Shown here one piece after another: positions 7,127 to 8,760 of a stretch of 41,042 nt of DNA. Under the pieces are notes generated by a model. The model saw nothing but the letters and a program-made list of their open reading frames with translations. It searched no databases and was not told the origin of the DNA. The stretch lies in contig JACNJF010000134.1 of assembly GCA_014382695.1 (NCBI GenBank), forward strand, positions 1 to 41,042. The letters run 5' to 3'. The position numbers and the translations under genes were made by a program. The stretch comes from Gammaproteobacteria bacterium. GTDB lineage: Bacteria; Pseudomonadota; Gammaproteobacteria; GCA-001735895. How positions within the stretch are numbered: position 1 is the first letter of the stretch; every line of letters begins with the position of its first letter.

Positions 7127-7561
7127 CTATTTCAGTAAAAAAGTCACCGGGCCATCATTTTGCAGATACACCTGCATATCGGCACCAAACTGGCCACTGG
7201 CAACCCTAGCATAGGACATTGCCGCGCTACTCATCAGGTAGTCAAATAACTTTATTCCTCGTTGCGGAGTCGCTGCAGTGGTAAAGCTCGGGCGTCGCCC
7301 CCGATTGGTATCCGCTGCCAGGGTAAATTGAGGCACCAGCAACAAACCACCGGCTACATCCCGTAACGACAGGTTCATCTTATCCTCTGAATCGGCAAAA
7401 ACCCGGTAATTCAACAAACGCTCCAACTGCTTCGACACAATGTCTTCATCATCATTCGGTTCGAAACCGACAAATACCAGTAACCCCTGTTCTATCTGCC
7501 CGACAATCTGCCGATCAATCTCAACTCTGGCCTGGCGCACGCGTTGCAACAATACGATCAC
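7127..7561 (-). CDS. dtd: D-aminoacyl-tRNA deacylase
   Basis: Dtd hydrolyses D-amino acids mischarged onto tRNA and so protects translation from D-residues. The frame is open further upstream (to 7669), but the GTG at 7561 gives a 144-residue protein, matching the roughly 145-residue family. The start reads (V)IVLLQRVRQARVEI, as in other Dtd proteins, and the GTG overlaps the pip stop as GTGA. Active-site segments PQFTLAAD (in place of the usual SQFTLAAD) and the C-terminal NDGPVTFLL are present. Coupling to pip is common in gammaproteobacteria. Confidence 0.95.
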   Translation of the reverse strand: MIVLLQRVRQARVEIDRQIVGQIEQGLLVFVGFEPNDDEDIVSKQLERLLNYRVFADSEDKMNLSLRDVAGGLLLVPQFTLAADTNRGRRPSFTTAATPQRGIKLFDYLMSSAAMSYARVASGQFGADMQVYLQNDGPVTFLLK

Positions 7562-8499
7562 AGACACTCCAGCATCGCGTTCGTACACTCGACCAGCGCT
7601 CGCGTCGTCCCCTGCTCTGAAACCGCATGACCGGCATCCGCAATAATCCTTAACTCGCTCCCGGGCCACGCCTGATGCAGCGCATAGGCCTGATCGAGAG
7701 GACAGATCACGTCGTATCGACCATGCACAATATAGCCGGGAATGCCCTTTAATTTATGCGCATTAGCGAGCAACTGATTCGGTTCAAAAAAACTGTTATG
7801 GCTAAAATAATGGCTTTCAATACGCGCGATGCTTAACGCAAGATGGGGGTCAGAAAAATAATCGATCACCGCACTATTTGGCGTCAGGGTTGCCGTACTG
7901 CCCTCCCAGATAGACCAGGCCTTGGCCGCAGACATACGCTCAATTTCATTATCTCCAGTCAGCCTTTTATAATAAGCCCGCACCAGATTACTCTGCTCCG
8001 CTTGCGGAATCGGGGCTAAAAAGTGCTGCCAGGCATCAGGAAACAGGCGTGCCGTTCCGCCCTGATAGAACCAGTCAATATCCTGCTGCCGGCATAAAAA
8101 AATTCCACGTAAAATAAGCCCGAGTACCTTTTCCGGATGAGTCTCCGCATACGCCAGCGCCAGCGTTGATCCCCAGGAACCACCAAATAACACCCATTTA
8201 TCAATGTTGAGATATTCACGGATCTGCTCCAGGTCATCGACCAGATCCTGTGTCGTATTATCTTTCAGGCTCGCATGTGGCCGAGACTTACCGCAACCGC
8301 GCTGATCAAACAACACAATTCGATAGCGCTCCGGATCAAAATAGCGTCGATGGTACGGCTCACAACTGGCACCGGGGCCGCCATGCAGGAAAATCACCGG
8401 AATTCCATCAAGACTGCCACTTTCTTCGATATACAGCTCGTGCTCAGGAGAAACCTGAAGATAATATGTGCGTGATGGCTGAATAACAGGGAATAACAT
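7558..8499 (-). CDS. pip: Proline iminopeptidase
   Basis: This is a cytoplasmic alpha/beta-hydrolase that removes N-terminal proline from peptides. At 313 residues it has the standard length. Visible features are the oxyanion-hole HGGPG (39-43), nucleophile S108 in GGSWGS, D263 in RYDVICPL and H291 in DAGHAVSE. WYQGG-type helical lid segments occur after residue 130. A ribosome-binding site, AAGGA, lies 9 bases before the ATG and touches one arm of the GacA-like palindrome at 8513-8530. It is followed by dtd with a four-base overlap. Confidence 0.95.
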   Translation of the reverse strand: MLFPVIQPSRTYYLQVSPEHELYIEESGSLDGIPVIFLHGGPGASCEPYHRRYFDPERYRIVLFDQRGCGKSRPHASLKDNTTQDLVDDLEQIREYLNIDKWVLFGGSWGSTLALAYAETHPEKVLGLILRGIFLCRQQDIDWFYQGGTARLFPDAWQHFLAPIPQAEQSNLVRAYYKRLTGDNEIERMSAAKAWSIWEGSTATLTPNSAVIDYFSDPHLALSIARIESHYFSHNSFFEPNQLLANAHKLKGIPGYIVHGRYDVICPLDQAYALHQAWPGSELRIIADAGHAVSEQGTTRALVECTNAMLECL

Positions 8500-8512: not shown

Positions 8513-8530
8513 TGTAGGATTTGCCCTACA
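8513..8530. promoter_or_regulatory. GacA/UvrY-type upstream activating box
   Basis: The 18-base sequence TGTAGG-ATTTGC-CCTACA is a perfect inverted repeat with 6-base arms and a 6-base spacer. This has the same geometry, and nearly the same letters, as the GacA upstream activating sequence TGTAAG-N6-CTTACA that drives rsmX/Y/Z in pseudomonads and resembles UvrY boxes at csrB. Its centre lies about 90 bp before the inferred start of the small RNA on the plus strand. It is also 14 bp upstream of the pip start codon on the other strand, so it could instead form a hairpin in a pip leader. Confidence 0.6.
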
Positions 8531-8611
8531 TTTTTAGTTAATATAAGCCTACATTTACTAGCGACTAAAGACCTATTCCAATTGCCTTCAGCATGAGACT
8601 ATATGTCTACG

Positions 8612-8760
8612 TTCTAAGGATTGAGCCCAAAAAGGATGTTACCGCTTAAGCAGGGTCGCTTTATCAGGAAGGCACTATCTCAGGGATGTAAAATTAAGTC
8701 AATCATCGACCAGGACGGTCAACCCAGCCTCAATCACGGATTTGATTGAGGCTTTTTTTT
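8612..8760 (+). ncRNA. Candidate Rsm/Csr-type regulatory RNA (CsrA/RsmA sponge)
   Basis: The interval has no credible coding frame but ends in a strong plus-strand terminator. Between an inferred start near 8612 (possible -10 TATATG at 8600-8605) and the terminator, about 149 nt, six GGA motifs occur: AGGA at 8617, 8633, 8666 and 8712, AGGGA at 8682 and CGGA at 8737. The one at 8712 sits exactly in the loop of GACC-AGGAC-GGTC (8708-8720) and the last is in the terminator loop. This is how RsmY/RsmZ/CsrB RNAs present sites to CsrA. Length, GGA density, hairpin loops and the GacA-like box all fit. The start site is inferred, and the identity is a proposal, not a homology match. Confidence 0.6.
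8727..8760 (+). terminator. Rho-independent terminator of the small RNA
   Basis: A perfect 10-bp stem GCCTCAATCA / TGATTGAGGC (8727-8736 and 8743-8752) closes a 6-base loop CGGATT and is followed directly by eight T. It points along the plus strand and ends about 70 bp before ttcA. No protein gene lies upstream on that strand, which implies a non-coding transcript. Confidence 0.9.

Follow-up and report, generated by a model that had tools for sequence, protein, structure and literature searches.

A predicted GacA-activated, CsrA-binding RNA gene of the Rsm/Csr family between pip and ttcA in an uncultured gammaproteobacterium

The space between pip and ttcA of an uncultured gammaproteobacterium very probably holds, on the plus strand at 8513-8760 of the window (the whole stretch of 41,042 nucleotides that was analysed), the gene for a GacA-activated, CsrA-binding RNA of the Rsm/Csr family. 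Rsm/Csr sponge RNAs are a well-known kind of regulator. Here phosphorylated GacA (UvrY) would bind a palindrome that precedes the transcription start by about 90 bp, and activate a promoter at about 8600. The transcript, expected to end at the terminator at 8760, would carry six (A)NGGA sites, of which two or more are placed in hairpin loops. By binding CsrA dimers at the six sites it would draw CsrA off target mRNAs and relieve CsrA control, with the GacS/GacA sensor system as the switch that turns the RNA on. Transcription, the binding of GacA and CsrA and the relief of targets are steps that we infer from what was computed, namely the parts themselves, how they are conserved and spaced, and the finding of csrA, gacA and one barA-like gene in the same genome.

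The pip gene (7558-8499) is transcribed away from the RNA gene, while ttcA follows on the same strand. The ttcA frame is open from 8832, and the start used in relatives corresponds to 8862 (ATGTTTATTAAACCC); judged from this comparison the latter is the more likely start codon, which would lie about 100 nt past the RNA gene. The order pip, RNA, ttcA is common to ten genomes, comprising eight of the organism's own genus (the source genome included) and two of the neighbouring genus g2, and these form the ten-genome set referred to throughout.

Table 1. Predicted elements of the pip-linked RNA gene, in window coordinates
Element	Position	Strand	Remarks
Predicted GacA/UvrY-type upstream activating palindrome TGTAGG-N6-CCTACA	8513..8530	.	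exact 18-bp match, TGTAGGATTTGCCCTACA
Second CCTACA half-site	8548..8553	+	23 bp past the CCTACA of the palindrome itself; 82% pairwise identity
Candidate -10 promoter element TATATG	8600..8605	+	87 nt from palindrome start; spacing kept
Putative Rsm/Csr-type small RNA, ~150 nt	8611..8760	+	matches model R1; 79% identity vs 23% past the terminator
5' hairpin, GGA motif 1 (8618-8620) in loop	8611..8626	+	stem kept via two-sided changes in G003 and G010
GGA motif 2 (AAAAGGATG)	8634..8636	+	invariant, ten genomes
Hairpin AAGC-AGGGTC-GCTT	8648..8661	+	loop is AGGATC in G001 and G004
GGA motif 3 (CAGGAAG)	8667..8669	+	invariant, ten genomes
GGA motif 4 (CAGGGATG)	8684..8686	+	invariant, ten genomes
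Hairpin GACC-AGGAC-GGTC, GGA motif 5 (8713) in loop	8708..8720	+	loop probability 0.96
Intrinsic terminator, GGA motif 6 (8738-8740) in terminal loop	8726..8760	+	11-bp stem and T8; loop GGA invariant

The perfect palindrome reported in a preliminary description of this DNA is indeed exact, is the single copy in the window, and is the one such site in the whole 4.0-Mb source genome. Exact copies number 0-4 per genome in the family and are almost absent outside it, and the reversed control pattern occurs once in the source genome and in no other family genome; with palindrome and control each counted once in the source genome, the evidence from the palindrome is comparative. In the ten-genome alignment of the whole intergenic space its half-sites are 97% identical, against 47% for the N6 centre, and the second CCTACA half-site stands out in the same way from flanks that are about 38-39% identical on both sides. 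Partial additional half-sites have been described beside the UvrY palindromes of csrB and csrC (PMC4682653), and the consensus of the GacA/UvrY site is TGTAAG-N6-CTTACA (PMC4950607, PMC4682653). A relaxed scan of the source genome gave 8 other one-mismatch sites against 25 for the control, which is no excess.

The possible -10 element proposed earlier at 8600-8605 holds by its spacing, since most orthologues have a hexamer of -10 type at a distance of 83-87 nt from the start of the palindrome, in many of them a clear TATAAT or TATACT. The hexamer of the source genome, TATATG, is weak taken alone: it was not picked up by a sigma-70 scan, and no -35 element was seen upstream of it. The spacer ahead of the -10 is 38% identical in the ten genomes, and the RNA would start at about 8610 +/- 2.

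Six GGA motifs had been counted in about 149 nt, and six are found within 8612-8760, all in AGGA or ANGGA context. Against dinucleotide shuffles the plain count is marginal (6 versus a mean of 3.6, p=0.07), while enrichment is stronger for (A)NGGA (p=0.005, with overlapping forms of one motif counted separately) and for GGA prefixed by [A/C]A (p=0.0005). Two of the motifs had been placed in hairpin loops, and they are predicted there with probabilities of 0.96 and 0.99. The summed GGA hairpin-loop probability is 1.98, compared with 0.12 +/- 0.21 in dinucleotide shuffles, and it exceeds that of their own shuffles in all ten orthologues, in G006 by a small margin. The other four motifs are predicted to be paired or in linear stretches, and known Rsm/Csr members likewise have several GGA outside loops. 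The overall folding energy of the molecule is no lower than that of shuffles (z -0.36), so the case for a sponge RNA is not built on folding energy. The terminator is strong and one-way, with its T8 running to 8760 as first described, and the scan gives its stem (8726-8753) 11 pairs rather than the 10 reported. On the opposite strand the hairpin lacks a T run, and it would therefore stop plus-strand transcription only.

Across the ten genomes the RNA is 79% identical, against 23% for the spacer after the terminator, and the spacers on both sides range from 23 to 39%. Within it, 16 of 18 GGA columns are invariant, compared with 36 of the 99 other columns outside the terminator, and both variable GGA columns belong to the first motif, which is shifted in the alignment. 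Loss of the palindrome and GGA motifs with the flanks retained had been named as an outcome that would speak against the RNA; the reverse pattern is seen, with both kept while the spacers have diverged. RNAalifold on a MAFFT alignment reports little covariation, as the register of the GGA hairpins differs from genome to genome, and the hairpins were checked sequence by sequence instead. The hairpin at 8708-8720 has a 3-4 bp stem in all ten genomes, built from GACC/GGTC, GGCC/GGCT or GGGC/GCTC, and the 5' hairpin varies as GTTC/GAGC, CGTCCT/GGGACG and GGCC/GGCC, being weakest in the source genome and G008, and poor in the latter. The same comparison bears on whether the region encodes a small protein of 37 to 42 codons. 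In the source genome a frame of about 37 codons, beginning with ATG, does run open across the RNA, yet the longest frames of its relatives differ in phase and start, single-base insertions and deletions break the frame, and no reading frame across the RNA is conserved among the orthologues compared. We rejected a small protein gene on this lack of a conserved start codon and frame, and give it almost no credence.

No Rfam family reaches threshold, either in the window or at 20 related loci, which bears out the earlier expectation that similarity tools would miss the RNA and that this copy is likely unannotated. The CsrB model (RF00018) reaches at best 14 bits in the source genome, against a cut-off of 71 that one control genome does exceed. 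Below threshold there are matches to SdsR and Spot 42, lying mostly within the terminator, and these raise the question of a different sort of small RNA, one acting by base pairing and dependent on Hfq. Two stretches, CACTATCTCA (8673-8682) and AAGTCAATC (8696-8704), are in keeping with such a role, being unpaired, nearly invariant in the ten genomes, and dispensable for CsrA binding, which requires only GGA context. Against it, the matches score 22.5 bits (SdsR_RyeB) and 15.5 bits (Spot 42) where thresholds are 38 and 80, and neither a GacA palindrome nor invariant GGA is a feature of SdsR or Spot 42. An SdsR or Spot 42 identity was rejected, as the matches are below threshold and mostly terminator, and we regard an RNA of this other kind as highly improbable. 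Base pairing could also come on top of CsrA sponging, as a further function of the same RNA. The two conserved stretches may have a structural role, relate to RNases or act as pairing seeds. A double role, in which the CsrA sponge also regulates by base pairing and these stretches (and, in the sister genus g3, CTCTCCTCGAGATAA) serve as seeds for direct mRNA targets, seems unlikely; the conservation of the two stretches is also the sole part of the locus able to lift the RNA beyond a routine new Rsm/Csr member.

A sponge RNA of the Rsm/Csr class presupposes its partners, and the absence of a CsrA or GacA homologue had been put forward as grounds for abandoning the proposal; both are encoded in the source genome. 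CsrA scores over its cut-off, and csrA lies beside lysC. The GacA orthologue shares 48% identity with UvrY of E. coli, and its gene sits directly upstream of uvrC, the arrangement that E. coli has as well. Its best NCBIfam match is NF007018, at 258 bits against a cut-off of 280. A hybrid kinase of 915 aa with the BarA/GacS-like domain order HAMP-HisKA-HATPase-REC-Hpt has BarA as its best whole-length NCBIfam match, at 530 against 890. Both proteins fall below the NCBI strict cut-offs, so their names are drawn from best match and context: from the match alone for the kinase, and from match and gene order for GacA.

Model R1 of the pip-linked RNA matches all eight genomes of the genus and both g2 genomes with E-values of 1e-34 to 1e-44, these being the sequences from which it was built. 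It also finds the RNA at the pip locus of two g3 genomes (G028 and G011, E 1e-7 to 1e-6) and another in G029. Across a sample of 369 genomes of the class it has no match outside the family, as expected of a fast-evolving sequence. In many g3 genomes an exact or one-mismatch palindrome occupies the corresponding site upstream of pip. A clear TATACT stands 87 nt from it, and then comes a GGA-containing RNA with a terminator, whose sequence has drifted apart and which in a few copies is poor in GGA. The next g3 gene is transcribed towards this RNA. A more distant MAG (L073), which has the pip-dtd-hisB-hisH-hisA order as well, carries the palindrome upstream of pip (L073:346-363, minus strand) and an RNA with 14 GGA and the terminator loop AAGGAT, and in G049, of another family, a palindrome-led RNA is divergent from dtd. 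The box and GGA-rich RNA upstream of pip in L073 suggest that a CsrA sponge has long had its place here.

These gene orders decide against reading the region as a 5' leader or attenuator of ttcA, in which transcription would stop at the 8726-8760 hairpin, ahead of ttcA, with the part before it as a sensor of, for example, CsrA. The RNA does share its strand with ttcA and comes about 100 nt ahead of the likely start codon. Yet g3 genomes with the palindrome and such a GGA-rich RNA have a convergent gene next to it, which makes leader function unlikely as the conserved role, and similar RNAs precede dtd or pip in G049 and L073. Conservation moreover ends at the T run, the spacer to ttcA being 23% identical, and no conserved anti-terminator pairing was seen. 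The leader was rejected on gene order in relatives, and only a very small chance is left to it. A side observation concerns the g3 pip loci (L022, L025, L028, L029, L032, L048 and others), where CTCTCCTCGAGATAA is conserved right before the terminator; by its letters it resembles an anti-Shine-Dalgarno stretch.

Set beside known members, the pip-linked RNA shows all testable sequence-level features of the Rsm/Csr sponge class, and by these features it is a new sequence family within that class. Sponge RNAs need several GGA motifs (PMC4950607, PMC2375449), and GacA sites lie at -75 for rsmY and -196 for rsmZ (PMC4950607). Like RsmX, RsmY and RsmZ of Pseudomonas, the pip-linked RNA has an 18-bp GacA palindrome upstream (here about -90), a comparable size, several GGA motifs of which some fall in hairpin loops, its own terminator, and, very likely, more than one copy per genome. 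It differs from them in its box, TGTAGG-N6-CCTACA in place of TGTAAG-N6-CTTACA, in having no Rfam match, in its pip/ttcA neighbourhood, and in the long conserved core between GGA sites. With CsrB and CsrC of E. coli it shares the UvrY palindrome, the terminator and CAGGA-type repeats (here CAGGAAG, CAGGGATG and CAGGACG), whereas it is shorter and has fewer sites, the CsrB model spanning 356 positions. RsmW of P. aeruginosa, which binds RsmA, has 7 GGA with 3 in loops (PMC4950607) and is similar in having part of several GGA in loops; it follows an mRNA and is without a close GacA box, unlike the pip-linked RNA with its own box, promoter and terminator. No paper on csrB and ttcA together came up in a literature search of partial coverage.

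Rsm/Csr systems usually have more than one such RNA, and the source genome very likely has at least two, to judge from its sequence. Several other palindromes precede a GGA-rich RNA of a second kind, located between holA and a gene for an ABC-type permease; these gene names come from reading the translations. Model R2 of this holA-linked RNA matches most family genomes examined, in the source genome with an E-value of 1e-6 (G000:C194:11234-11344, L129). There the upstream half consists of N (L129:682-1505), which leaves the GacA box unreadable. Two Rsm/Csr RNA families absent from Rfam, one pip-linked and one holA-linked, are added from an uncultured gammaproteobacterial family. The GacA box together with gene context finds Rsm/Csr RNAs where sequence models fail, and the Gac/Rsm switch can be fitted into the biology of organisms that metagenomes alone have revealed. 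Apart from these RNAs, exact palindromes in G001 and G007 (L052:1501-1518 and L057:386-403) have no RNA gene behind them. Close downstream of each is a short membrane-peptide frame (MDVFVENI.../MDAFVENI...), a possible direct target of GacA.
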